Program-made: the position numbers and the translations under genes
From: a virus
Virus record (IMG/VR): IMGVR_UViG_3300035158_000908
Span: 1-28,689 of that record
Length of the DNA stretch: 28,689 bases
Strand: one strand, 5' to 3'
Notes under the pieces: generated by a model
Seen by the model: the letters and a program-made list of their open reading frames with translations, nothing else
Database searches by the model: none
Told to the model about the DNA's origin: nothing
Shown here: one piece after another, positions 2,035-25,256 of the stretch
How positions within the stretch are numbered: the stretch's first letter is position 1
How the letters are laid out: every line of letters begins with the position of its first letter

Positions 2035-3150
2035 ATGATATATTTAGATCATCATGCTACAACTCCAATAGACCCAAGAGTTCTAGAAGCTATGATGCCG
2101 TATTTGAAGGGAATGTACGGGAATCCATCTAGTAGAACACATAAGTTTGGCTGGGATGCAGAAGATGCTATAGAGACTGCAAGAAATTCTGTAGCGAGTT
2201 TGATAAATTGTGATTCACATCAAATTATTTTTACAAGTGGAGCCACAGAGTCAAATAATACCATCCTAAAACAAAAAAGATTTAAATCTATAATCACGAG
2301 CTTAATAGAACATAGTTCTATAATTGATACATGCAAGTATCTTAAAGACGAAAGACACCTTGCCTTTTTACGCCCAAATTCCAATAATGTGATAGACGTA
2401 GATCATCTAAAAACATTACCCCAGCCAGATCTTATTTCCCTAATGTTAGTGAATAATGAGACTGGTACAATTCAAGATGTCGCAAGAATAGGTAATGTTT
2501 TGAAAGAACCTGATACTCTACTACATTCAGATATGGCACAGGCGGCGGGGAAAATTTCCATCGATGTCGAAAAATTAAATGTCGACTTTGCATCGCTTTC
2601 GGCACATAAAATCTATGGTCCCAAGGGCGTTGGAGCCTTATATATTAGAGAGTTTAGTTCATTGGAGCCACTTATACATGGTGGTAAACAGGAATATGGG
2701 AAAAGAGCGGGAACTCTTAATGTTCCAGCGATTGTGGGGTTTGGTAAGGCTTGCGAAATTGCTAATGATGAGTTAAGTTATATAAGAAAAAAGCTTTACG
2801 AAAATGCAGAGTGTCTATACGAAAAGTTGGTCATGCATTTGCCAGGCATAAAACACCATGATTTTTATCCGCAAGTTCCAGGGACGTTACATATTTCTCT
2901 TCCATGTGATGATATGACTCATTTACTGGGAATACTTAGTAATGATGTTGCAATATCTATGGCAAGTGCGTGCATGTCTATCAATAATGAGCCATCAAGA
3001 GTGTTGAAGGCAGTAGGAATGCCAGATGAAGAATCTAAGAGGTCAGTAAGAATCTGCGTAGGAAAATATAATACATTTGATGAACTGCAGAAAGCCGCAG
3101 ACTTTATAATAAAAGCAATTCATGTCGTTAACATGGAGGTTAAAAAATGA
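2035..3150 (+). CDS. Cysteine desulfurase (NifS/IscS family)
   Basis: A 371-aa, full-length, PLP-dependent aminotransferase class V enzyme. The family converts L-cysteine to alanine and passes the sulfur, as a Cys persulfide, to acceptors for Fe-S clusters, thiolated tRNA or DNA phosphorothioation. Visible signatures in order are YLDHHATTP at the N-terminus, GNPSS, FTSGATESNN, the LVNNETGT motif, HSDMAQAAGK, the PLP-lysine motif SAHKIYGPKG (Lys192), GTLNVP, and the catalytic-loop Cys in ASACMS (Cys313), followed by RICVGKYNT. All key residues appear present, so it is probably active. It lies between a tail gene and envelope-type small proteins and overlaps the next gene by 4 nt (ATGA). No scaffold (IscU), tRNA thiolase or dnd partner is visible, so the sulfur acceptor is unknown. 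The family call is firm; the physiological role is not. Confidence 0.93.
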   Translation: MIYLDHHATTPIDPRVLEAMMPYLKGMYGNPSSRTHKFGWDAEDAIETARNSVASLINCDSHQIIFTSGATESNNTILKQKRFKSIITSLIEHSSIIDTCKYLKDERHLAFLRPNSNNVIDVDHLKTLPQPDLISLMLVNNETGTIQDVARIGNVLKEPDTLLHSDMAQAAGKISIDVEKLNVDFASLSAHKIYGPKGVGALYIREFSSLEPLIHGGKQEYGKRAGTLNVPAIVGFGKACEIANDELSYIRKKLYENAECLYEKLVMHLPGIKHHDFYPQVPGTLHISLPCDDMTHLLGILSNDVAISMASACMSINNEPSRVLKAVGMPDEESKRSVRICVGKYNTFDELQKAADFIIKAIHVVNMEVKK

Positions 3151-5249: not shown

Positions 5250-5447
5250 ATGGCTAAAAAATCACAGGTGTATGATGAGGTCATCTCTCGTATAATGGTG
5301 GAATTGGACGCTGAACAGGCAGAATATCAAAAGTTATACTACAATTGTAATGGCAGAACAGATATTATGGCCAAATTCCAACACCAACGGATGATTAAGT
5401 TGTGTGAGAAAATAAGAAAAGAAATAATGCTTGCAGAAAGGAAGTAA
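5250..5447 (+). CDS. Small helical protein, unknown function
   Basis: A 65-aa protein starting at ATG 5250 (MAKKSQVYDE), with GAGGAT just upstream. A TTG at 5238 in the same frame is less likely because it lies inside the preceding gene and before its stop. The product is mainly helical and charged, with no recognised domain. Its stop overlaps the FtsK-like gene's start as TAATG, which suggests translational coupling with the motor gene. Confidence 0.6.
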   Translation: MAKKSQVYDEVISRIMVELDAEQAEYQKLYYNCNGRTDIMAKFQHQRMIKLCEKIRKEIMLAERK

Positions 5448-7540
5448 TGAATAAAGTTAATGCAACGAAAGCCTTGGAAAAACTTTTTGAGCATCACAAA
5501 ATTAAGGCAAATGTTAAGCGATGTATACAGGAAGGCAACTTTCTAGTTTTTGACATAGTGTTAAAGCCAGGGGGCACGGTTAATAAGCTGGAGAAATTTT
5601 CGAAGGAAATTGCACTATTTTTAAAAGCACTGTCTGAACCGCTAATTTACACCGTAACAAAACAGGGTATTATTCGTATGGAGATTACGGTCTCTGAGGC
5701 GGTCAATGTGTGTTTTGAAGATGTTATCACTTCTGACACTTTCGAATCTTCTTCAGCAAATCTGCCGCTGGCACTTGGCAAAACTAGAGATGGAACTCCC
5801 CTTGTAGCAGACTTATCTACTATGCCTCACTTATTGGTGGGGGGCACAACTGGATGTCACGCAAGAGGAACAAAAATATTAATGTACGATGGCACTACTA
5901 AAAAAATTGAAAACATCAAAAAGAATGATATATTGATGGGACCAAATAGTATGCCAAGAAAGGTTTTAAGATTGTTTCGTGGTAGGGAAAAAATGTTTAA
6001 GATAATCCCTATAAAAGGAGACCCCTTTGTAGTTAATGGTAGTCATATACTATCACTTATGAAAACCAACCGTATATCTTCAGAACCTAGAAAAATAATT
6101 AATATATCTGTAAACGAGTACGTTGCTAAATCAAAAAATTTTAAACATATGTACAAATTGTACCGCTGTCCAGTTAAAAAATTTGGTAACGAAGCTTCAG
6201 TTAAAGAGCCTTATTTTGTAGGTGTTTTGTTGGGGGACGGGTCATTAAAAAATCAGTTATCAATTACGACACTAGACAGTGTAATTGTAAAAGAATGTGA
6301 TAAAAGTGCCCGTCTTTTTAATTCAGTGGTAAAAAAATGTGACGATTATGTTTACCACCTTTGTATGAATCGAAAAGGTAAGGGTTTTCAATGTAAAAGT
6401 GAACTAAGAAAGTTTTTGGAAGAAATAGGTATTTATGGGACAACATGTGGTGATAAGTTTATTCCACATATGTATAAAACCGCTTCTTGGGAGGATAGGT
6501 TGGAGATCTTGGCCGGCCTAATAGACACAGATGGTAGTTATGATGGTGGTGGCTTTGATTTTGTTTCAAAATCGGAAAGTCTGGCAAATGATGTTGTTTT
6601 TATAGCGAGAAGCTTAGGGCTTGCCTCCTATGTAAAAGAAACTTGGAAAGCAGCGACTAATGGAAAAACTCAAATTAAGCAGAAATACTATCGTGTTTAT
6701 ATTTCAGGTGATTGTTCTATAGTTCCTTGTAGAATTAGCAGAAAACAAGTATCAAAAAGGAAGCAGGTTAAAAATGTACTAAAAACTGGATTTTCTGTAA
6801 AACCGCTGGAAGAGGATGATTTTTATGGGGTAGAGGTCTCTGACGACAATCTGTATTTAATGGGAGATTTCACAGCAACTCATAATTCTGGAAAATCTAT
6901 AATGCTACAAACGATCATTAATAGTTTACTAATTAATGAAAAACAGTTTATAAATTTCGCACTAATTGACCCCAAACGAGTTGAGTTCTCATATTATAGT
7001 TCTCTTTCTCAACTTTATGGACCCGTATCAAGAGATGTTACTGGTGCGATGAACTTACTAGAGAGTTTGGTAGCAGAAATGGAAAATAGGTTTTCTAGGC
7101 TTGAAAGATCTGGTGCTAGAGATATAAATACATATAAAGGCAAAATGCCGTATATTGTAGTGGTGATAGATGAGCTTGCAGATTTAATGATGGTGTCCAA
7201 AAAAGTGACACAGGATTATATATGTCGATTGGCTCAAAAGTCAAGAGCTTGTGGAATTCATCTCGTAATCGCCACTCAGAGACCTTCAGTAGACGTGGTA
7301 ACAGGGCTTATTAAGGCAAACTTTCCTGCCAGGTTGAGCTGTCAAGTCAGTTCTGCGATTGATAGTAGAATTTTATTAGATAGAAATGGTGCGGAGCGTC
7401 TTTCTGGAAAAGGAGACGCTATTATTAATTGTAGTGAACATAACTTTGCTAGATTTAAGGGGTCATTTATATCCGAAAGGGATATAACTCTTAATGTTAA
7501 GAATAAGAAATCTTGGTGGAGTAGAATATGGAATTCTTAG
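5447..7540 (+). CDS. FtsK/SpoIIIE-type DNA translocase ATPase, interrupted by an intein
   Basis: The 697-aa precursor splits into a 353-aa ATPase and a 344-aa intein. The host part reads like the FtsK motor core: GKTRDGTPLVADLSTMPHLL, then the P-loop GTTG//SGKS (interrupted by the intein), ALIDPKRVEFS, Walker B VVVIDELADLMM, the sensor-like stretch HLVIATQRPSVDVVTG, and RILLDRNGAERLSGKGD. It has about 100 N-terminal residues before the motor and lacks the FtsK membrane domain and the gamma DNA-reading domain. It should therefore be a soluble, minimal dsDNA pump. A role in genome packaging, segregation or DNA clearing in the infected cell is inference. It starts in a TAATG overlap and overlaps the following CHC2 gene by 13 nt. 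Without splicing the ATPase should be inactive. Confidence 0.92.
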   Translation: MNKVNATKALEKLFEHHKIKANVKRCIQEGNFLVFDIVLKPGGTVNKLEKFSKEIALFLKALSEPLIYTVTKQGIIRMEITVSEAVNVCFEDVITSDTFESSSANLPLALGKTRDGTPLVADLSTMPHLLVGGTTGCHARGTKILMYDGTTKKIENIKKNDILMGPNSMPRKVLRLFRGREKMFKIIPIKGDPFVVNGSHILSLMKTNRISSEPRKIINISVNEYVAKSKNFKHMYKLYRCPVKKFGNEASVKEPYFVGVLLGDGSLKNQLSITTLDSVIVKECDKSARLFNSVVKKCDDYVYHLCMNRKGKGFQCKSELRKFLEEIGIYGTTCGDKFIPHMYKTASWEDRLEILAGLIDTDGSYDGGGFDFVSKSESLANDVVFIARSLGLASYVKETWKAATNGKTQIKQKYYRVYISGDCSIVPCRISRKQVSKRKQVKNVLKTGFSVKPLEEDDFYGVEVSDDNLYLMGDFTATHNSGKSIMLQTIINSLLINEKQFINFALIDPKRVEFSYYSSLSQLYGPVSRDVTGAMNLLESLVAEMENRFSRLERSGARDINTYKGKMPYIVVVIDELADLMMVSKKVTQDYICRLAQKSRACGIHLVIATQRPSVDVVTGLIKANFPARLSCQVSSAIDSRILLDRNGAERLSGKGDAIINCSEHNFARFKGSFISERDITLNVKNKKSWWSRIWNS
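5855..6886 (+). mobile_element. Intein with LAGLIDADG endonuclease in the FtsK P-loop
   Basis: Residues 137-480 of the precursor (344 aa). The N-terminal splice block starts with Cys (CHARGTKILMYDG). Block B is a variant, NGSHILSL. Two LAGLIDADG helices are visible (FVGVLLGDG and ILAGLIDTDG), so a homing endonuclease domain is present and looks intact. The C-terminal block is VEVSDDNLYLMGDFTATHN, ending His-Asn, with Ser as the +1 extein residue. Excision restores GTTGSGKS exactly, which fixes both boundaries. Cys1, the penultimate His and Asn, and Ser+1 are the standard class 1 set, so splicing is expected. The insertion point is the most conserved spot of the host protein, as is usual for inteins. 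Confidence 0.95.
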
Positions 7541-8166
7541 AACAAGATCCTAATAAAGCGTGGAAGTTTAAAAACATAGTAAACTCCAAGGTTTCTATCA
7601 TAGATTTAATGCGTAAATATAATCTCAAGTTAGAAGAAAAACAAACTGGCCAAGACTTCACTCATCGAACATATTGTCCTTTTCATAAAGGGAAAAATGG
7701 AGGCCGTGAACGTACTCCATCTATGTTTGTGTCAGCAAAAACCAATTCCTTTTTCTGCTTTGGATGTGGTGCCAGTGGCACTCCAATTCATTTTGTAAGC
7801 TTAATGGACGGCACTCCTCCTCTTATAGCCCTGCAAAAATTGGCAAAAGATATTGGTCTAATAAAGAAAAATGGGCAGTGGGATGAATTGCAATTAAATG
7901 CTCTAAATGATATGGAGTATGTGTTTGATTCATCAAAAAACATTGAGCCATATATACTCGAAATGAGCACAATAATTAGGTCGTATATTAAAGAGTTTGT
8001 AGGTACTGACGATTTTGAAAAAGAGTTGAAGTGGATAGAGAAAGTTGGCCGGCAACTTGACAGGTACCTCAATCAGATAGGCCATGAAGATTGGGAGGAT
8101 GCAATGAAAATACGAGACAAACTCTCAAAAAAGGTTAAAAGTAGGGTTAAGGCTGGTGAGAAATGA
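7528..8166 (+). CDS. CHC2 zinc-binding (DnaG N-terminal type) protein without primase catalytic domain
   Basis: A 212-aa protein. The N-terminal 100 residues match the zinc-binding domain of DnaG-type primases: a lead helix (SIIDLMRKYNLKL), then CPFH (Cys50, His53), the TPSMFV strand and CFGC (Cys77, Cys80), then GTPIHFV. In DnaG this domain recognises the template and helps start primers. The remaining 110 residues are helical and show no TOPRIM or RNA-polymerase-type catalytic motifs, so it cannot be a complete primase. It may work with a catalytic subunit encoded elsewhere. It overlaps the FtsK-like gene by 13 nt and the SbcD gene by 4 nt (ATGA). Confidence 0.85.
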   Translation: MEFLEQDPNKAWKFKNIVNSKVSIIDLMRKYNLKLEEKQTGQDFTHRTYCPFHKGKNGGRERTPSMFVSAKTNSFFCFGCGASGTPIHFVSLMDGTPPLIALQKLAKDIGLIKKNGQWDELQLNALNDMEYVFDSSKNIEPYILEMSTIIRSYIKEFVGTDDFEKELKWIEKVGRQLDRYLNQIGHEDWEDAMKIRDKLSKKVKSRVKAGEK

Positions 8167-12399: not shown

Positions 12400-13292
12400 T
12401 GGCTGTTATTGCAGTAACTGCTACAGAATTAGGACCACAACTTATATCTGGGATACCATTTATGGTATCTTTATCAACAAATGTGCCAGCCACAATGTTT
12501 TATACATTGGATGGAAGTCAGCCTGGCATGTTGTCTCCAGTATATATTTCTCCAATTATAATGCCTACCGAGTCTCCAGTAAGACTTAGAGTGTGGGCTT
12601 TAAGTGGTTCAGATCGCGGCGGTTTGGATATAACTTTTCGCTCTGATTCTTCTGATACGCCATATTTCAGGAGAATCGATGGATATGGAATCGGCATAGC
12701 AGTTGATGCCTACGACGTAATCCCTGTCCTATTAGATGGGTATAAGCCAGATGAAAATCTTATGGTTGACATTCCAGCCAGGTATTCTGATTATGAGTTG
12801 GAAGACCTAGAGATACAGGATAAAAAATATGATCTTGAGGGCACGGGAACGGTGGTTATCACTACGCCAGTCATTGGAGGCCGAGGTTCATCTATTGATC
12901 CAACACCAAGTTCTCCTAACAATCAAAATGTATATTTTAATCCCCGATCTATGTATATTACCATAGACGGAACCGATGGTTATGAAGATCAGTCGGTTTA
13001 TATAATTAACAGACCTTACGGTAATACAATGGATATGACCAAGTATTTACAGGGCAAATCTATGTATGAGCCGCAACCTTATATTTCAGGGGGTCATGTA
13101 AGAACGTTTTACACTATAAAAGATGGATATGGCCTAGCATGTTCCTATTATTTCGATCATAACGAAACAAGATGGATAAAAAGCATACAAAGTTTTGATC
13201 CTGCTTCTATTCCAGAGGGTGTGGGAGATAGGAGACAGTTTGGGCCACCACTTGTATTCAAGTGGATTTACAACAAGAGATCTGCAATATAA
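12399..13292 (+). CDS. Tail/appendage-type protein with a CHB_HEX_C-like domain
   Basis: A 297-aa protein. The N-terminal 75 residues resemble the beta-sandwich found at the C-terminus of chitobiases and in many surface proteins: MFYTLDGSQPGMLSPVY, then PVRLRVWALSGSD. The rest is beta-rich, with repeated DGY triplets (RIDGYGIGI, LLDGYKPD, GTDGYEDQ, IKDGYGLA), the same triplet that punctuates the tail-fibre-like gene at the left edge. No catalytic motif was seen, so a virion appendage or adsorption-related role is likely but inferred. The start overlaps the previous stop, and the stop overlaps the HNH start as TAATG. AAAGGA precedes the ATG. Confidence 0.6.
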   Translation: MAVIAVTATELGPQLISGIPFMVSLSTNVPATMFYTLDGSQPGMLSPVYISPIIMPTESPVRLRVWALSGSDRGGLDITFRSDSSDTPYFRRIDGYGIGIAVDAYDVIPVLLDGYKPDENLMVDIPARYSDYELEDLEIQDKKYDLEGTGTVVITTPVIGGRGSSIDPTPSSPNNQNVYFNPRSMYITIDGTDGYEDQSVYIINRPYGNTMDMTKYLQGKSMYEPQPYISGGHVRTFYTIKDGYGLACSYYFDHNETRWIKSIQSFDPASIPEGVGDRRQFGPPLVFKWIYNKRSAI

Positions 13293-13885
13293 TGAAAAAG
13301 TGTAATATGTGTTCTGAAATAAAAGATGAAACAGAGTTTCATAAATGTAAAAGAAATAAAGATGGATTACAATATCATTGTAGAAAATGTAGCACAAAAT
13401 ATAGAAGAAAGTATGCTAAAAAGAAACCTGAGAAAATTAAAGAATGGAATAGAACATATAGAGAAAATCATTCTGATCAAATAAGAAGATATTATAGAGA
13501 TAACTCAGAGTATTTTAAGCAATATAGAATAGATCATGCTGAACACTATGAGGAATATTATAGAAAAAATGCTGATAGGTTAAAGGAATATCGAAAACAG
13601 TATTATAGAGAGAATCCTCATATATGTGCTAACGCCAAGGCAAAAAGAAGGGCCTTGGTTGGTGATCAATCGATTTCAAAAGAAGATTGGCTTCTCATAA
13701 TGGACTCTGGAGATTGGAGTTGTTTTTATTGTGGGGTGAAATTGAACGATAGCAACAGATCTATAGACCACTTTGTGGCTTTGGCGAAAGGTGGTGATCA
13801 TGCGGTTCATAACCTTGTTTCATGTTGTATTAGTTGCAACTTATCCAAGGGAGATAAGACATATCGTGAATGGAAAAAATTATGA
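13292..13885 (+). CDS. Free-standing HNH homing-type endonuclease
   Basis: A 197-aa protein from ATG 13292 (TAATG overlap with the tail-type gene). An ATG at 13262 is inside the upstream gene and adds only a weak extension. The N-terminus has a zinc-ribbon-like pattern (CNMC ... CRKC). The middle is made of repeated Tyr/Arg/Glu-rich helical units (RRYYRDNSEYFKQYR, YYRKNADRLKEYR). The C-terminus carries the HNH core: CFYCG, the catalytic SIDHFVALAKGG, HNLVSCC and CISCNLSKGDK. This architecture is common in mobile HNH endonucleases of phages. It sits between a tail-type gene and a DNA-repair nuclease, consistent with intergenic insertion. It overlaps the next gene by 4 nt. Confidence 0.9.
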   Translation: MKKCNMCSEIKDETEFHKCKRNKDGLQYHCRKCSTKYRRKYAKKKPEKIKEWNRTYRENHSDQIRRYYRDNSEYFKQYRIDHAEHYEEYYRKNADRLKEYRKQYYRENPHICANAKAKRRALVGDQSISKEDWLLIMDSGDWSCFYCGVKLNDSNRSIDHFVALAKGGDHAVHNLVSCCISCNLSKGDKTYREWKKL

Positions 13886-17286: not shown

Positions 17287-18663
17287 ATGACTAAAAAGAA
17301 ACGTAAGAAGAGAAAAAAGTCTTCACCGCCAACAAAGATACAAACCACTCCCGTGAGCGAAACAAATACAGAAGAATGGCATCATGTTGTCACCATGGAA
17401 GATTTGGGCGGCCTTAAGAGAAAGCTTAATGTGGTATATGATACTACGGCGGTTCAAATGGCTTTGGACAAGTCATGTGAACTTATAGGAAAAAGGGTTC
17501 AAATAAAGGGTTATCGCAGGGGTAAAGCCCCTAAGCCTTTAGTAGAATCGTACTGCCGAGAGGAAATTGAGAAATCGGCCTCTTCTTTACTTACTCAAGA
17601 AGGGTTTCTGCACGCATGTTTTGAGCAGAAAATTCAGCCACTTGGCGAGCCTAAGACGGAAAACGCTGAATTTCATATCGACGGCACATTTAGTTGCGAT
17701 ATTATCCTAGATATTAAGCCTACTATTGAGGCTACGGGATACGTTGGACTACAACTAACCAAGCCAAAAATAGATAGAGAGGAACTTCTAAACAAAATCC
17801 TCGATGAGGCTAAAACTGAACACGCCGTAGAAAAGCCGCTTGAAGAGGTTAAGATAGGCTCGGTTGTTTCCTTGGATTTTACTGTGGTCGGAGAAGATGG
17901 AGAGCAAATTACCGATGGAAAAGACCACCATTTTATGGTAAATGAGGGTCAGGAGCCTCCTTTTGGCGAAAACCTAGTTGGTAAGGCTGTTGGTGAAAAC
18001 TTTACTGAAAGTGTAACCTTGCCAGAGGCAATGGAAGAACATGGTGGAAAGCCAGCCAGTGTAAATATCACAGTAAAGAATGTATTTGAGAAAGTTCCTC
18101 CCAAGGATGAAGAGTTGGTCAAATCTATGCAAGCTCCATCGTATGATGAGCTTATGGAAGCTTTCAAGAAGCGTGCTGAGTATGAGGCATCAATGAAAGA
18201 AAGTCAAGCAGTAGAGGAGGAAGTTGTTAATAAGTTGCTCGAACTTCATACTTTTGATGCTCCAGCAGAGTGGGTAAATGATGAAGAAAAATATATGTTT
18301 GCCCAATTGGGACTTCAGGGGGATGTAGATGAGAACATTAAGGGTCATATTAGGCAAATGGCTGAACGAAATGTAAAAAGAACATTTGTGTTGGAAGCCG
18401 TATATGATGCTGAACCTGGATTAAAGATAACTCCTGAAGAATTTGAGGCTTGGCTAGAAAAGGAAGCCGAGCACAAGCAGATAAGTCCAGCTGTCCTTAA
18501 GAAGGATTTAAAAGAACAAAACATGCTTGATGGAGTTATGGGCCTAATAAAGCATCGAAAAGTTATGGACTTTATAGTTAGTCAGGCTCAGATTACTGTA
18601 GAGGGCGAAGAACCTCAAACATTAGAGGAGCCATATGAGATCCCAGAGGATCCACTAGGATAA
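17287..18663 (+). CDS. tig: Trigger factor-like ribosome-associated chaperone
   Basis: A 458-aa protein close to the usual trigger factor length. After a Lys-rich N-terminal extension (MTKKKRKKRKKSSPP), the ribosome-binding domain includes GYRRGKAPKPLVESYC, which matches the GFRxGKxP ribosome-docking signature. The middle fits the FKBP-like PPIase domain (VKIGSVVSLDFTVVGEDG, then GQEPPFGENLVGKAVGE). The C-terminal half fits the helical substrate-cradle domain (VVNKLLELHTFDAPAEWV ... LKKDLKEQNMLDGVMGLI). The signature FRK of cellular trigger factors is YRR here. A TAGGAG site precedes the ATG. In cells the protein binds at the ribosome exit tunnel and shields nascent chains. Here it may support folding of phage proteins, which is inference. 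Confidence 0.9.
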   Translation: MTKKKRKKRKKSSPPTKIQTTPVSETNTEEWHHVVTMEDLGGLKRKLNVVYDTTAVQMALDKSCELIGKRVQIKGYRRGKAPKPLVESYCREEIEKSASSLLTQEGFLHACFEQKIQPLGEPKTENAEFHIDGTFSCDIILDIKPTIEATGYVGLQLTKPKIDREELLNKILDEAKTEHAVEKPLEEVKIGSVVSLDFTVVGEDGEQITDGKDHHFMVNEGQEPPFGENLVGKAVGENFTESVTLPEAMEEHGGKPASVNITVKNVFEKVPPKDEELVKSMQAPSYDELMEAFKKRAEYEASMKESQAVEEEVVNKLLELHTFDAPAEWVNDEEKYMFAQLGLQGDVDENIKGHIRQMAERNVKRTFVLEAVYDAEPGLKITPEEFEAWLEKEAEHKQISPAVLKKDLKEQNMLDGVMGLIKHRKVMDFIVSQAQITVEGEEPQTLEEPYEIPEDPLG

Positions 18664-19060: not shown

Positions 19061-19386
19061 TGGATATTACCACACCTAAATTAAAAAAATACGGTATTAC
19101 ACGTAGGAGTACGAAAAACTGTCAATGTAGTCAGAACGCATTTGTCTACCTAATTCCAGTAAAATTGGATGAAAAGGTGGTGAAGTTTATTGAACACATA
19201 GGAAAGCCTGCTTTCGATTTTAAAAAAACTTCCATTCTTAAAATAGAAAATCCAACTCTTATTATATCAGGGATTAGAAGGCTACGAGAAATAAGACTTA
19301 CATTGAAGAAAAATGTGAAAGGCGTTATAGATATTTTCGAAGACGCAATTATTAAGTATATAGAAAGTTTTAAGGAGAAAGAATGA
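19060..19386 (+). CDS. Small basic protein, unknown function
   Basis: A 108-aa Lys-rich protein. The N-terminus contains CQC (STKNCQCSQNAFVYLIPVKL) and the rest alternates strands and helices, ending in a charged helix (DIFEDAIIKYIESFKEKE). No family recognised. It overlaps the previous gene by one base (TGATG) and the DnaE start by four (ATGA), so it is likely co-translated with DnaE. Confidence 0.55.
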   Translation: MDITTPKLKKYGITRRSTKNCQCSQNAFVYLIPVKLDEKVVKFIEHIGKPAFDFKKTSILKIENPTLIISGIRRLREIRLTLKKNVKGVIDIFEDAIIKYIESFKEKE

Positions 19387-22300
19387 GGGACTTTGTACAT
19401 CTACATGCCCACACTAATCTTGGGTCCATGTTAGATGCCCTTCAGAGTGTAGACGATCTGTTCGATTTAGTTAACCTAAAAGGGCAAAAAGCATTGGCAA
19501 TCACGGATCATGGGACTCTGGCCGCGCTCTTTGATGCATACAAAGCATATAAAAGAACTGGTGTTAAGTTTATACCAGGCTGCGAGGCTTATTTTGTCCA
19601 CTCATATGATATTATTGAGCCAAAAAAAGGTGAAAAAGGTAGGAAAAAGACCGAGAAACGTAAGCATATGGTGTTGTTAGCTCAGAATGAAACTGGCTAT
19701 AAAAACCTGCTTAAGATTAATTATCTAGGATTTCAGCACTTTGTTGTTAGCATGGGCAGAGTTTTTCCAAGAATTAGTTGGGAGATTCTCGAAGAATATA
19801 ATGAGGGAATTATTGCCACGTCTGCCTGTGCTAATGGAATATTGGCAGAACCCATTTTCCAGGATGATTATAAAAAAGCGGTGGAATATGCTAAACGTTT
19901 CGCTGATATTTTCAAAGGAAGGTTTTATTTAGAAATTCAACCACATGCCCTTGAAGATGACAGACTTAGCCAGGTAAAGCTCAACAACCAACTAATCAAG
20001 ATGTCCAAAGAGCTAGATTTGCCTTTGGTAACTGCGGTTGATGCGCATTATCTTACGAAATCCGATGCGACTGTACATGATGTGCTGATGGCTATTAATG
20101 CTAAAAAGCCTGTGGACGATCCAGATCGACATCGCTATGGTATAAATGAGTTTTATGTGAAAGATGGAGACGAAGTATATGACTTTCTTGCTAAATTTCA
20201 CGGTGAAGAGGCAGCTGAAGAGGCCGTATCCAACACGGTAAAAATAGCAGATATGATAGAGCCACCAGACTATATGGAATCTAAGGGTAACCATTTGCCT
20301 GTGTTTGACCCATCTAAAGAGCCAGACTACAAAGAATTTTTAGAATGGCGCGAGAAATCGCACACTCCAGAAAATTTACCAATGGATAAAGCCTATATGA
20401 GGTTCCATATTATTGATGGCTTTAAAAGGAAGTTTGGACATCTTGGTCCTGCCGAGAGAAAAGAAAGGTGGGATCGTGTCAAAAATGAACTCAAAATATT
20501 GGAAGGCAATAATTTTTCATCATATATGTTGATTACAGCAGATATGATTAAATGGGCTAAGAAGAACGATATTCTTGTTGGCATTGGACGAGGGTGTTTA
20601 TCCGGAGACACTATGGTTTTTACCAGCGATGGGTTCAAAAGGTTAGATAAAATAGTAAAAGGCGATGTTGTCTTAACCCACAAAGGTAGGTTTAGATCTG
20701 TTAAAGATACATTTAAATATGATGTTTCAAATGAAGATTTAGTTCAGGTAAGAACGGATTACTCGTTTGGTCCAATTACATTAACAAATGATCACGAGGT
20801 TTATGGGACTAAAAAGCGCAAAACAAAATCGTATCAGCAATATTTAAATAATAACTGGAAGCCGCCATTTAAAAGAAGAAAATATTTTGTTAAAAATGAT
20901 CCATCATTTGTGGCCATTTCTGAACTGAATAAGGATGATTTTATATTTATGCCTTTTCCTGACAGGCCAGATCATGATATAGAAAGTTTAGATTTGGGAG
21001 AGTATTGTGGTCCTAATGATATACTTGATGGTAATAATATTATATCTATGATCCCACTAACAAATAATCTCTCTATTGGGGAGATTAGTAAAAAAACGGG
21101 TCTATCAAGAAACGCTGTACAAAGGGCTAAAAGAAATAATAAAATTTTAGTGAAGACAAGACTTGTTATTTCTGATTATTTAGCCCAATCTGGTGTGTCT
21201 TTCGACGATTGGCAAAACAGCACAAACACAGAGAACAGAGAGATTGGCAGATATTTAGAAATTGATGAAGATTTTTGTTATATGATAGGAAGGTGGATTG
21301 GAGATGGCTGGATACATGATAAAAACCAGTCATATAGTATAGGGTTCGCATTTCATAGAGACGATGTAAGTGGAAAAGAAAAACTATTTAATTATTTTAG
21401 TGAGTTGGGGTTTAAATGTACTATTGCTCCACATAAAGAAAAAAAAATAGACCAACTATATGTATATAGTTATATTTTAGCTAAACTTTTTAGAGATCTT
21501 TTCCCGAGTTATCAAGACACATCAAGTACTAAATCATTCGGTATTTTTTCTGGATTGCCGTCTAACAAAACAAAACAAATTATAATGGGAATTAAACATT
21601 CAGATGGCCATTATAACATAGAAAGAGACAAGCGTGAAAATATTGACTCTACAAGCATTAATCTTATTAATAATATTAGACAGGAACTACTGTATTTAAA
21701 AATACCCAGCAGTGTTTCAATAAGAAAAAGCTACAAATATGGAGAGTATGTTTGTAAAAAATCTTATAAATTGCGATTTAGAGGTATCGAGGGAGAGTTA
21801 TCAAATAGAATTGATCACCGTATTTTTGAAAATGGATATTATGTTACAATTTTAGATAAAAAGCAAATCAAAAAAGACTTTGTATATGATATTCACGTAG
21901 ATGAGGACAAGTCCTATGTGACACAAAATTATGCTGTACACAATAGTGTCGGCGGAAGTTTAATTGCTCATCTGTTAGGTATTCACAACGTAGATCCTCT
22001 TGAGTATGGATTATTATTTGAGAGATTCCAGAATGCATATAAAACAGATCTCCCAGATATAGATACAGATTTCACATCTAACGGCCGAGACAATGTTCAG
22101 GAATATGTAAGAGAAAAGTATGGCCGAGATAACTGTGCCCAGGTATCGAATATTAACACCTATACTCCCAAAAATGTGATCCCAGATCTTGTTAAATCTA
22201 TGAGAAATGTAATGCCAGGTTTAATTCCAGAGGGAGCCTATTATGTAAAAATCGCAGAGGCTATTAAGGCTGCCATTCCAGATCAAGATCCTGACGGCAA

Positions 22301-25256
22301 TAAGGTAAAGACTCTTGAGCGTGCTATGGAACTTTCTCCTAAATTACGTGATTTTGCTGATCGTTGCCCAGAACTAATGGAATGTGCTGATAAAATTGTT
22401 GGCATGCCAAAAGAGTATTCTACACACGCAGCTGGGATGGTAGTTTCAGATGTCCCAATTTATGAGTTTGCTCCGCTACGTATTGATAAAAACAGGGAAA
22501 TAGCAGTACAGTATGAGAAGAATCGCTGTGAGAGCGAGGGTTTGGTTAAGATGGATTTCCTGGCCATATCAACGTTGGATGTCATTGACGAGACATTTAA
22601 AAACATTAGAAGTCTTGGTATAGAAAATGCACCCAGACAAATGGAAGATATTCCACTGGATGACCCTGCCACATATGAGATGATTCAGCGCGGTCAAACC
22701 AAGTGTGTTTTCCAACTCGGCAAGTCAGGCATTATGGCGGCCCTATGTAAAAGGATTAAGCCAAAAAATATTTTGGATATTGCCATGGTAAATGCTCTTG
22801 GCAGGCCTGCAGCAAAAGGTAAGCCAGGAGAAAAAGGCACCAGAGAAGAGTATATAGATCGCAGAACAGGCAAGGATGAGGTTACCTATCCTCACATATC
22901 TTTAGAAAAGCCTCTTGGCGAGACGTATGGTTTAGCCATCACAGAAGAGCAACTTATGGGTGTAGCTGGCCATGTAGCTGGATGGGACCTAAACAAAGCA
23001 GATAAGCTCAGAAAGTTTACCAAGATTAAGGGTAAGGATCCAGATTTTGCTCTAAAACTAGAGGCGGAGTTTATTGAGGGGATGATGAACACCCATGGTG
23101 TAGATTATGAGTTGGCTAAGGGAGTTTGGGATAAGTATGTAGCTGGCTTCGGGGGGTACGGCTTCAATAAAACTATGCATAAAGATACATTAGTTTATAC
23201 CACATCAGGCACAAAGAAAATGTCAGAGTGTAAGGTGGGAGATAAACTGTATAGTTTAGATGACGGAAAAGTTGTTGTATCAAATATTACAAACATATAT
23301 GATCATGGTATAGTCCCTTTATGGAAATTAACATTCAACGATGGTTCTGTTGAAAGGTGCACATTAGATCATAAGTGGATTGTAAATGGGGAAAGGATAA
23401 CTACTAGGAGGATATTAGAAGAAAATGCCGAAATCGATTCCATCAGTGTGTCCGGGTTGCCATCAGGAATTTCCCTCAAAAGCGAAGTTAAATGCTCACA
23501 AAAAAATATGTGTAGAGTATTGTTCTCAAGTAAAAACGGGGATAAATGCGAAAAGAGTAAGAAAGTTTTATTGTGGAGAGGAAAAGGTTTGTACAAAAGT
23601 GGAATGGTCAGAACACTTCCAAAAATGTCAAATATGTCAGAAAGTAAGAAAAGAGGTTCGTCAACAGACCATGTCGAAGGTAAACAGGTCGGACACAATG
23701 AGAAAAAAAGCCTCAGTAACTGCGAAGAAAACATCCTCAAGAAGAGATATACAACTAAAGAGAGCAGAAGTTTTGAGGAAATGGAGACAAAACAATCCAG
23801 AGGAGTTTGCAAAAATATTGGCAAAGGCGCACAGTTCTCCAAAGAGATCAAAGATGGAAATGGAATTAGAGCCGCATTTGCAGAAAATAGGGTTCAAAAG
23901 AAACGGGACGATTTTGTGTGGCTCAAAACAGAAACAAGTAGATTTTGTCAACAAAGAGATAAGGTGTGTGATAGAGATAGATGGTCCTTGGCATTTCCTC
24001 CCAATCAAGGGAGAGGATCACTTGAAAACAGTACAGAGCAGAGATTGTATATTAGAGACGGAGATCAGCAAGAGGGAATGGAAGTTATTGAGGATCGCCA
24101 TGGATCAGTTCCCAAAATCTGGCAAACCATCAGAAAAACTCCTGGATATAATTATAAAAATTATACAAGAGAGGCCAAGCAAAATATACTATCTAGGAAA
24201 GTTATACAATTCAGTTTCGAGGGATTTGATAGGGGACTTGATATAGAAGTTGATAATGAATCTCATAATTTTCTTCTTGCATCTGGTATATTTACTTCAA
24301 ACTCGCATGCAGTATTCTATTCAATTAATGGATATATCACAGCTTATCTAAAATGTCACTATCCTGCAGCTTTTCTTGCAGCCTATCTTAAGGTTAAAAC
24401 TTCAAAGGGCGGCATTAACAAAGATGATGAGATTAATGGAGCGAAGGGTGAGTGCCGTAGGTTGGGAATTAGAATTATTCCTCCCGATATTAACAAAAGC
24501 AAAGCTGGATACGAGGTCTTGGATGATCAAACTGTCGTAATGGGCTTAGCGGCTATTAAGGGAATGGGAGCAAAGGCTCTAGATGAAGTTATAAGTAAAC
24601 AACCATTCTCATCGTTTGTTAATTTTCTCCACAAAGTAGACGGTAGAATTATTAATAAAAGTAAAATCGAAGCTTTAGCTAAGGCTGGGTGTTTCGATTC
24701 TTTCAAAGTAAACAGAAAAGATGTTCATGATGAGGGTAAAAAGATACGTGATAAGATGAACGCCTTCCTCAGAAAGAAGATCAAAGATGGTTATGATGCT
24801 GAAATGGCTATCGAAGATTTTCCTCTTAAATTCTCTGGAAATGAGTGGGGCCAACAGGAAAAACTTAGGTATGAGCAAGAGGTATTGGGCGAATTAGTAT
24901 CTGGAAATATCCACGACCTTTTTCCCAGATTCTTTACCAATAATGGAGTTACTTTAATCTCCAAGCTTCGAGTGCTACCAAATCGTCATAGAATTGTGGT
25001 AGAAGTTATTGTCAAGAGCTTTTTGCGTGAGTTTAAGATAAAAAATGGCAAATACGCTGGTCAGAAGATGGCCAAATACCTAGTGGAAGATGTCATGGGT
25101 ACGGAGGTTGAGCTTACAGTGTGGCCAACTGAGTATAAAACTGCCAAAGATTTAATGACTATTGGCAGGCCGGTTGGGGCCATCTGTGAGGTAAGTGACT
25201 TTAACGGTGCGAAAACATTAATGTTAAAAGAACTTCAAAAAGTTTATGGAAATTGA
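19383..25256 (+). CDS. dnaE: DNA polymerase III alpha subunit (DnaE) with two inteins
   Basis: A 1957-aa precursor; removing two inteins (residues 405-854 and 1264-1640) leaves a 1130-aa DnaE, a normal length. The N-terminus is a PHP domain with metal-type motifs (HLHAHTN, ITDHG, CEAYF, VDAHYL). The polymerase core has GIGRG//SVGGSLIAHLLGI, LPDIDTDF (precursor Asp894 and Asp896 by analogy with the catalytic pair), VKMDFL (Asp1058), and FGGYGFNK//SHAVFYS. A C-terminal region has a helix-hairpin-helix-like stretch (LAAIKGMGAKALDEV) and an OB-fold (VEVIVKSFLREFKIK). It is the likely phage replicative polymerase. AAGGAG precedes the ATG, which overlaps the previous stop. No epsilon proofreading subunit is seen here, so the PHP domain may matter. 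Confidence 0.96.
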   Translation: MRDFVHLHAHTNLGSMLDALQSVDDLFDLVNLKGQKALAITDHGTLAALFDAYKAYKRTGVKFIPGCEAYFVHSYDIIEPKKGEKGRKKTEKRKHMVLLAQNETGYKNLLKINYLGFQHFVVSMGRVFPRISWEILEEYNEGIIATSACANGILAEPIFQDDYKKAVEYAKRFADIFKGRFYLEIQPHALEDDRLSQVKLNNQLIKMSKELDLPLVTAVDAHYLTKSDATVHDVLMAINAKKPVDDPDRHRYGINEFYVKDGDEVYDFLAKFHGEEAAEEAVSNTVKIADMIEPPDYMESKGNHLPVFDPSKEPDYKEFLEWREKSHTPENLPMDKAYMRFHIIDGFKRKFGHLGPAERKERWDRVKNELKILEGNNFSSYMLITADMIKWAKKNDILVGIGRGCLSGDTMVFTSDGFKRLDKIVKGDVVLTHKGRFRSVKDTFKYDVSNEDLVQVRTDYSFGPITLTNDHEVYGTKKRKTKSYQQYLNNNWKPPFKRRKYFVKNDPSFVAISELNKDDFIFMPFPDRPDHDIESLDLGEYCGPNDILDGNNIISMIPLTNNLSIGEISKKTGLSRNAVQRAKRNNKILVKTRLVISDYLAQSGVSFDDWQNSTNTENREIGRYLEIDEDFCYMIGRWIGDGWIHDKNQSYSIGFAFHRDDVSGKEKLFNYFSELGFKCTIAPHKEKKIDQLYVYSYILAKLFRDLFPSYQDTSSTKSFGIFSGLPSNKTKQIIMGIKHSDGHYNIERDKRENIDSTSINLINNIRQELLYLKIPSSVSIRKSYKYGEYVCKKSYKLRFRGIEGELSNRIDHRIFENGYYVTILDKKQIKKDFVYDIHVDEDKSYVTQNYAVHNSVGGSLIAHLLGIHNVDPLEYGLLFERFQNAYKTDLPDIDTDFTSNGRDNVQEYVREKYGRDNCAQVSNINTYTPKNVIPDLVKSMRNVMPGLIPEGAYYVKIAEAIKAAIPDQDPDGNKVKTLERAMELSPKLRDFADRCPELMECADKIVGMPKEYSTHAAGMVVSDVPIYEFAPLRIDKNREIAVQYEKNRCESEGLVKMDFLAISTLDVIDETFKNIRSLGIENAPRQMEDIPLDDPATYEMIQRGQTKCVFQLGKSGIMAALCKRIKPKNILDIAMVNALGRPAAKGKPGEKGTREEYIDRRTGKDEVTYPHISLEKPLGETYGLAITEEQLMGVAGHVAGWDLNKADKLRKFTKIKGKDPDFALKLEAEFIEGMMNTHGVDYELAKGVWDKYVAGFGGYGFNKTMHKDTLVYTTSGTKKMSECKVGDKLYSLDDGKVVVSNITNIYDHGIVPLWKLTFNDGSVERCTLDHKWIVNGERITTRRILEENAEIDSISVSGLPSGISLKSEVKCSQKNMCRVLFSSKNGDKCEKSKKVLLWRGKGLYKSGMVRTLPKMSNMSESKKRGSSTDHVEGKQVGHNEKKSLSNCEENILKKRYTTKESRSFEEMETKQSRGVCKNIGKGAQFSKEIKDGNGIRAAFAENRVQKKRDDFVWLKTETSRFCQQRDKVCDRDRWSLAFPPNQGRGSLENSTEQRLYIRDGDQQEGMEVIEDRHGSVPKIWQTIRKTPGYNYKNYTREAKQNILSRKVIQFSFEGFDRGLDIEVDNESHNFLLASGIFTSNSHAVFYSINGYITAYLKCHYPAAFLAAYLKVKTSKGGINKDDEINGAKGECRRLGIRIIPPDINKSKAGYEVLDDQTVVMGLAAIKGMGAKALDEVISKQPFSSFVNFLHKVDGRIINKSKIEALAKAGCFDSFKVNRKDVHDEGKKIRDKMNAFLRKKIKDGYDAEMAIEDFPLKFSGNEWGQQEKLRYEQEVLGELVSGNIHDLFPRFFTNNGVTLISKLRVLPNRHRIVVEVIVKSFLREFKIKNGKYAGQKMAKYLVEDVMGTEVELTVWPTEYKTAKDLMTIGRPVGAICEVSDFNGAKTLMLKELQKVYGN
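20595..21944 (+). mobile_element. DnaE intein 1 (LAGLIDADG, with an HTH insert)
   Basis: Precursor residues 405-854 (450 aa). The N-terminal block is CLSGDTMVFTSDGFKRLDKI, starting with Cys1. Block B is TLTNDHEVYG. Two LAGLIDADG-type helices are visible (MIGRWIGDG and IIMGIKHSDG). Between block B and the first helix lies a helix-turn-helix-like segment (SIGEISKKTGLSRNAVQR). The C-terminal blocks are VYDIHVDEDKSYVTQNYAVHN, with Ser+1. Removal restores GRGSVGGS, the DnaE polymerase motif. All class 1 splicing residues are present, so it should splice. In the second LAGLIDADG helix the usual acidic residue pattern is HSDG, so nuclease activity is likely but not certain. Confidence 0.95.
23172..24302 (+). 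mobile_element. DnaE intein 2, hosting an overprinted endonuclease gene
   Basis: Precursor residues 1264-1640 (377 aa), bounded by restoration of GFNK/SHAVFYS. The N-terminal block A is TMHKDTLVYTTSGTKKM, with Thr at position 1 instead of Cys or Ser. Block B is CTLDHKWIV. The C-terminal blocks are LDIEVDNESHNFLLASGIFTSN, ending Ser-Asn instead of His-Asn, with Ser+1. In the DnaE frame the roughly 270 residues between the splicing blocks have no recognisable domain. In the +1 frame the same bases encode a homing endonuclease (23425-24246). The first intein half is about 85 residues and the last about 20 to 30, which is a mini-intein-sized splicing domain. Splicing is plausible but not assured. 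Confidence 0.9.
23425..24246 (+). CDS. Vsr/PD-(D/E)XK-like homing endonuclease nested out of frame inside DnaE intein 2
   Basis: A 273-aa protein in the +1 frame relative to DnaE. An in-frame TAG (23416-23418) precedes the ATG, and AGGAGG lies at 23406-23411, 13 nt upstream, so independent translation is likely. The N-terminus has a C2HC zinc finger (CPGC ... HKKIC) and a second Cys/His cluster (FYCGEEKVC ... HFQKCQIC). A basic linker follows (MRKKASVTAKKTSSRRD, then NNPEEFAKILAKAHSS). The nuclease domain reads VDFVNKEIRCVIEIDGPWHF (Asp173, Glu184, Asp186, His190), then SRDCILETEISKREWKLLRIA. This is the Vsr-like fold used by free-standing homing nucleases such as the I-Bth0305I family. Its stop codon lies within block F of the host intein. 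The minus-strand frames here are shadows. Confidence 0.9.
   Translation: MPKSIPSVCPGCHQEFPSKAKLNAHKKICVEYCSQVKTGINAKRVRKFYCGEEKVCTKVEWSEHFQKCQICQKVRKEVRQQTMSKVNRSDTMRKKASVTAKKTSSRRDIQLKRAEVLRKWRQNNPEEFAKILAKAHSSPKRSKMEMELEPHLQKIGFKRNGTILCGSKQKQVDFVNKEIRCVIEIDGPWHFLPIKGEDHLKTVQSRDCILETEISKREWKLLRIAMDQFPKSGKPSEKLLDIIIKIIQERPSKIYYLGKLYNSVSRDLIGDLI

Follow-up and report, generated by a model that had tools for sequence, protein, structure and literature searches.

Results

An intein with a second open frame nested in it

The window analysed here, 28,689 bases long, is the IMG/VR virus record IMGVR_UViG_3300035158_000908 (window positions are used throughout), and it encodes a phage DnaE-type DNA polymerase III alpha subunit with two inteins. 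The second of these, intein 2, contains a complete putative homing endonuclease gene in the +1 frame, while the DnaE frame remains open across the whole insertion. We interpret the element as a dual-coding mobile intein, in which the host frame would splice and the +1 frame would home, and give this reading a probability of roughly 85%. The overlap, the constraint on both frames, the folds, the recurrence, the spread between hosts and the decay series were established computationally. An earlier note on this DNA, drawn from the sequence, had described a complete endonuclease-type open reading frame (ORF) in the +1 frame inside an open DnaE intein, with its own ATG, an upstream AGGAGG and an in-frame stop before the start. 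The coordinates, the lengths of both open frames and all three signals were reproduced.

Relatives were collected by searches with the nuclease and with the Hint N-domain (Hint-N) as queries. One further contig, IMGVR_UViG_3300034152_001126 (L002), aligns gaplessly with the window along 11,150 bp (11 mismatches) and encodes a nuclease of 100% identity, which makes a local frameshift error very unlikely. Throughout the relatives, we found a common insertion site (FNK↓S/T...SN↓S, arrows marking the junctions) and the same +1 nesting. At this DnaE site, the nesting is present in viral contigs (L003, L004, L006 and L015, as well as L005 with a shortened nuclease) and in the chromosomal dnaE genes of seven gammaproteobacteria (L007, L008, L009, L010, L031, L040 and L042). 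These include Candidatus Thiosymbion (L007), a member of the Thiotrichaceae (L008), Parabeggiatoa (L009) and Thiomargarita (L010), and the L031 copy sits on a 4.28-Mb contig. The window nuclease is 41-47% identical to the other copies.

The nuclease is shortened, broken or absent in ten relatives (L005, L026, L034-L037, L041 and L043-L045). The host frame is open in all ten, and in 22/22 close relatives overall; at none of these 22 loci is the host gene divided into two ORFs around the nuclease, as it would be in a fractured gene. The dnaE gene of L032, a longer stretch around L026, is followed by an accA-like gene (named by reading its sequence), and dnaE-accA is the usual chromosomal order. 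The overprinted intein arrangement is real and recurrent, and it is not a sequencing error. Neither frameshift errors nor homologues with a closed DnaE frame, the findings named beforehand as contrary to the proposal, turned up among the close relatives, and the same overlap was sought and found in other phages and in bacterial chromosomes.

Constraint on the two frames

In a shuffle test, the nuclease protein was kept fixed, its own synonymous codons were permuted (20,000 shuffles per copy) and stops in the host frame were counted. The test covered the twelve near full-length copies, namely the window and the four viral (L003, L004, L006, L015) and seven bacterial (L007-L010, L031, L040, L042) copies. 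The window has 0 host-frame stops, against a mean of 10.5 in the shuffles (minimum 3 of 20,000) and 24 stops in the third frame; with the codon usage of the DnaE exteins, the probability of 0 host-frame stops is 8.6e-15. All twelve copies have 0 host-frame stops, with shuffle means of 7.1-17.8, and their third frames hold 8-31 stops. For 11 of them, every one of the 20,000 shuffles contained stops (minimum at least 2), and for the GC-rich L007 copy P = 0.0002. Chance openness of the host frame is excluded, and continuous host-frame translation is therefore under selection. Nor is the openness a selection effect of the search, since the nuclease-query searches were independent of it.

Protein-level constraint sits in the nuclease frame. 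Among ten aligned copies, the first, second and third codon positions of the nuclease have pairwise identities of 0.60, 0.67 and 0.41, and protein identity over the same columns is 0.50 in the nuclease frame versus 0.28 in the host frame. In the linker region, host-frame identity is about 0.20-0.37 versus 0.40-0.66 for the nuclease; it climbs to 90% only at the start of block F. The coordinates of all these features are collected in Table 1.

Table 1 Features of the dnaE gene, intein 2 and the nested ORF (window positions)
Feature	Position	Strand	Description and basis
Phage DnaE-type DNA polymerase III alpha gene	19383..25256	+	Open throughout its 1957 codons, two inteins included; ORF list
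Intein 2, DnaE frame, 377 aa	23172..24302	+	Thr1 ... Ser-Asn↓Ser+1; insertion site GFNK↓SHA
Hint block B, TLDHKW (Thr B:7, His B:10)	23361..23378	+	Sequence; identical in 12/12 aligned relatives
AGGAGG, putative Shine-Dalgarno of the nested gene	23406..23411	+	Spacing to the ATG 13 nt; read as Arg-Arg of Hint-N in the DnaE frame
TAG that closes the nuclease frame shortly before its ATG	23416..23418	+	Sequence
Nested putative homing endonuclease gene, 273 aa	23425..24246	+ (+1 frame relative to DnaE)	ATG start, stop TAG 24244-24246; ORF list, fold model, codon constraint
Intein linker, DnaE frame	23460..24182	+	Open, without recognisable domain, predicted disordered
Nuclease core, +1 frame	23836..24111	+	SPKRSKME ... 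KQVDFVN ... IEIDGPWHF ... RD; alignments
Hint block F, GLDIEV (Asp F:4)	24234..24251	+	Nuclease stop TAG (24244-24246) embedded in the codons ATA GAA

Predicted folds

Profile searches recognised PHP, DNA_pol3_alpha, finger and HHH_6 domains in the DnaE ORF. Alignment and modelling placed splicing blocks A, B, F and G and a Hint fold in intein 2, as the earlier note had anticipated for its N- and C-terminal blocks. In an AlphaFold model of the host frame, the two Hint halves are predicted with confidence and structural comparison gave the Npu DnaE intein as the best match; the intervening residues, domain-free as described in the note, are predicted to be disordered (model residues 103-343, with a predicted local distance difference test score, pLDDT, of about 30). 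The nuclease was said to overlie this linker. It does cover it, but it is not confined there, as its stop lies in block F and most starts lie in the Hint N-domain.

The nested ORF, with a zinc-finger-like N-terminal part followed by a Vsr-like nuclease core, is a putative endonuclease of predicted Vsr fold. Its AlphaFold model, built with eight homologues (mean pLDDT 84), matched the Vsr endonuclease structures 1cw0 and 1vsr with a Foldseek probability of 1.00 (E 1.2e-04 to 1cw0), and nothing besides Vsr was retrieved by Foldseek at E below 0.001. Residues E145, D173, E184, D186, H190 and D207 are invariant across ten nuclease copies in the alignment. A zinc-binding N-terminal part is backed by zinc-finger profile matches and conserved Cys/His pairs. 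In profile searches of the two frames, Intein_splicing (1.2e-06, under its curated Pfam cut-off), DUF559 and zf-C2H2 appear, all of them sub-threshold. The Pfam matches to the nuclease were DUF559 and zf-C2H2 alone, PHROG 559, which is HNH-labelled, gave a weak match, and a sequence search of solved structures recovered zinc fingers alone. The assignment of the Vsr fold therefore rests on the structure model, the sequence profiles being sub-threshold.

Searches with tblastn gave zero matches for the window nuclease and a bacterial copy against annotated phages, and zero for the bacterial copy against plasmids; these annotated collections thus hold no close named relative. No intron was found in the window with Rfam at the gathering threshold, of group I or group II.

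Several observations concern neighbouring or related inteins. The first DnaE intein of the window (about 20600-21920) starts with Cys (CLSGDT) and has a long in-frame middle part, so that one DnaE gene carries a conventional-looking intein and an overprinted one. Three Hint-N matches (L017, L018 and L019) are terminase inteins without a nested nuclease; in L017, around 6001-8100, a terminase-like phage gene apparently holds two inteins, one following GRR and the other SGK, with a gap of about three residues. A bacterial DnaE (L047; G581 C1) carries at exactly the same FNK↓SHS site an ordinary, distinct mini-intein that starts with Cys1 and ends His-Asn. A distant nuclease (L061) is free-standing and not nested.

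Start, stop and splicing signals

The nuclease stop is a TAG within the codons of block F in 12/12 near full-length copies. In ten it is drawn from a GTA valine codon, a minority codon there (fraction in the exteins 0.03-0.33); in L004 and the window, an ATA or TTA codon with a Glu codon after it supplies the stop. Most relatives have the nuclease start within the Hint N-domain; in the window, the ATG comes later. In eight copies (L003, L004, L006, L008, L010, L031, L040 and L042), Trp-Glu codons read as TGG GAG form GGGAG at 6-12 nt before an ATG or TTG that comes from the Phe-Asp-Asp region. L009 has no ATG near the beginning of its open nuclease frame and shows the changes G187R and P139A; its nuclease is probably failing.

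On the protein side, the aligned copies do not vary at Thr B:7, His B:10, Asp F:4, the block F His, Ser G:6, Asn G:7 or Ser+1. The roles of the block B residues Thr B:7 and His B:10 were taken from PMC4031507. The terminal Asn and Ser+1 are found in 22/22 inteins, with Thr at position 1 in 16/22, including the window intein, which has no Cys there, and Ser in 6/22. Reviews give Cys or Ser for this position, and one figure legend adds Thr. In the window intein and its 21 relatives, Ser replaces the His that precedes the final Asn and mostly follows Cys-Cys. A class 3 intein (Cys F:4, Trp B:12, Thr G:5) was considered and rejected, as F:4 is Asp in all copies; of the other class 3 marks, the Trp is present and Thr G:5 is limited to the window and L003.

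Mobility

The Hint domains are 39-78% identical between copies, while the DnaE exteins of viral and bacterial hosts share 25-45%; for L006 and L008, the values are 69% and 34%. Branch lengths in the Hint and extein trees show the same contrast, and viral L015 groups near bacterial Hints (92/99 support) despite its distant polymerase. It should be noted that long branches make the exact topology of these trees unsafe, although the contrast in lengths does not depend on it. One site is thus shared by diverged hosts with Hint identity well above extein identity, as expected of a mobile homing element. Because the Hint domains are far more alike than the host polymerases, the element moves, and these computed sequence comparisons show horizontal spread between hosts.

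Mechanism and alternatives

Splicing, expression of the nuclease by internal initiation, its target and cutting are what we infer from these results. The DnaE frame would produce a continuous intein whose two Hint halves are bridged by a long linker that is probably disordered. This intein would excise itself from the polymerase precursor with Thr1 or Ser1 as the first nucleophile and with the assistance of Asp F:4, Thr B:7 and His B:10; the Asn would then cyclise and Ser+1 would act as acceptor. Translation begun internally in the +1 frame would turn the linker DNA, together with parts of the Hint-coding ends, into a distinct zinc-finger endonuclease of Vsr fold. If it acts as other homing endonucleases do, this enzyme would cut intein-free dnaE at the GFNK↓SHS codons and thereby copy the element in full into new alleles. 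The host frame would be held open by selection on the polymerase, which is essential, and the nuclease frame by selection for mobility; once mobility is lost, the nuclease would be deleted or accumulate stops as the host frame persists. The earlier note had likewise supposed that the continuous intein carries an overprinted nuclease of a free-standing type, which is tolerated since excision of the intein removes it, and the nesting (or its remains) and open host frame in every close homologue support this from the sequence side.

Some points weigh against the dual-coding mobile intein. Several copies derive from metagenome bins, Thr1 is unusual among inteins, and the spacing of AGGAGG to ATG in the window, at 13 nt, is above the usual. 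L015 and L009 are without a clear Shine-Dalgarno. The Glu codon that supplies GAG is GAG in 9/10 intact copies having Glu there versus 2/7 decayed ones (Fisher P 0.035), a weak contrast among copies related by descent that is no more than suggestive.

Four alternatives were weighed. One is that the endonuclease is an ordinary in-frame intein domain pushed into the +1 frame by sequencing or assembly frameshifts, a prospect that we consider negligible: the window and many relatives are indeed metagenome contigs, but L002 matches the window without gaps, the same +1 phase occurs at twelve loci, one of them on the 4.28-Mb contig, and the nuclease ends inside conserved Hint codons in every copy. 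A pair of indels would, moreover, be unable to leave about 250-290 host-frame codons stop-free each time. It is also highly improbable that the host frame is unused, with DnaE made as two halves (through a split intein and internal starts) and the linker open by accident. Fractured genes with Vsr-related endonucleases reportedly exist, and at the same site in a distant DnaE (L046; G612 C154), stops and another ORF lie between Hint-N and Hint-C; this locus is perhaps a fractured gene, and its contig is also frameshifted in DnaE-C, for which reason it was not used as evidence. Against this stand the 0 stops in 22/22 close relatives, ten of them with a shortened or lost nuclease, where 7-18 are expected for intact copies.

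The two remaining alternatives concern expression of the nuclease. Programmed +1 frameshifting from the DnaE frame could replace internal initiation, and the constant +1 relation and the tandem AGG AGG just upstream in the window would suit it. We regard this as very unlikely because the TAG at 23416, following AGG AGG, would end the shifted product at once and also speaks against entry by a shift farther upstream; moreover, the upstream limit of the open nuclease frame varies between copies, and eight relatives have GGGAG and a start codon at 6-12 nt. Finally, the nested frame could be a dead relic from which endonuclease is no longer made, in an intein kept by vertical descent. The weak start signals of the window, the missing start and two substitutions of L009 and the loss of the nuclease in many relatives speak for it, but the window frame is complete, retains the conserved acidic and His positions and is 41-47% identical to other copies, substitutions concentrate at nuclease third positions across the set, and the real relics among these inteins collect stops or deletions. 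Hence, a relic is unlikely.

Relation to known systems

The ShiLan domain and similar out-of-frame HNH insertions in actinobacteriophage DNA methylase genes (Arsenault, Gosselin and Gogarten 2025, PMC11855218) share with our element a mobile, homing-type endonuclease with zinc fingers in another frame of an insertion that is open in the host frame. They differ in having no Hint domain and no splicing, the insertion staying in the methylase (an enzyme that is itself dispensable in the authors' view), and in encoding an HNH nuclease in the third frame from a GTG start without a detectable ribosome-binding site (PMC11855218). Here, a complete intein in a replicative polymerase is combined with a predicted Vsr-fold nuclease. 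In the literature searched, we found no intein that overlaps an endonuclease in another frame; a comparable case may be described in a 2025 preprint on non-canonical actinobacteriophage inteins.

Like canonical large inteins with an in-frame LAGLIDADG or HNH domain, the element combines Hint and endonuclease, a putative homing cycle and decay to mini-inteins, but it has the endonuclease in the +1 frame, bounded by a separate start and stop, and its in-frame linker is predicted to be disordered. Dassa and colleagues reportedly described, in Nucleic Acids Research in 2009, fractured genes in which Vsr-related endonuclease genes lie between the Hint halves of split inteins. The likeness lies in a replication-gene intein with a Vsr-related endonuclease gene between Hint halves, separately translated there and predicted to be so here; there, however, the host gene and the intein are said to be broken in two, whereas one continuous frame is kept in all 22 close relatives here. 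The cyanobacterial DnaE split intein (Npu, Ssp) is the best structural match of the Hint halves and resides in the same polymerase. It is inserted at Y↓CFNKSH, a few residues upstream of the present site, and is split and without an endonuclease; our element is inserted after FNK and has Thr or Ser as its first residue. The nuclease core has the predicted fold of the Vsr very-short-patch repair endonuclease (1cw0, 1vsr), but with about 20% identity, added zinc-finger-like and helical N-terminal parts, and no mismatch-repair context.

Inteins are usually described with the endonuclease as an in-frame domain, lost, or split around a separate gene. The arrangement described here would be a fourth way, in which two frames of one stretch of a replicative polymerase gene encode a splicing protein and an enzyme for mobility, and it offers a concrete, testable stage for the entry of free-standing nucleases into inteins and possibly for the origin of split inteins. 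Tentatively, we suggest that a long-lived class of dual-coding inteins may circulate between phages and bacterial chromosomes, with a splicing linker and the gene for a Vsr-type homing endonuclease on the same DNA, start and stop signals in Hint codons and splicing from Thr1, and that closure of the host frame might lead directly to fractured genes and to split inteins as they occur in nature. Between an intermediate and a stable new arrangement, the two options left by the earlier note, the latter fits better than a transient stage because the nesting persists across phages and bacteria with DnaE exteins whose identity is as low as 20-45%. About 12 intact but diverged copies and a series of graded decay make this a sizeable natural overlapping-gene system in which per-frame constraint is measurable. 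Annotation pipelines will tend to overlook the nested gene or call it a sequencing error. The Thr1 intein family also merits attention in its own right.

Other genes in the window

Other window genes include an FtsK/SpoIIIE-like ATPase (5447-7540) whose P-loop region carries an in-frame LAGLIDADG intein (matches to Hom_end_hint and LAGLIDADG_3) and a phage-encoded trigger factor-like chaperone (17287-18663; Trigger_N, Trigger_C). A Class-V aminotransferase (2035-3150) resembles cysteine desulfurases of the IscS/NifS type in sequence, and a free-standing HNH endonuclease ORF (13262-13885) shares about 30 bases with the end of the gene before it.

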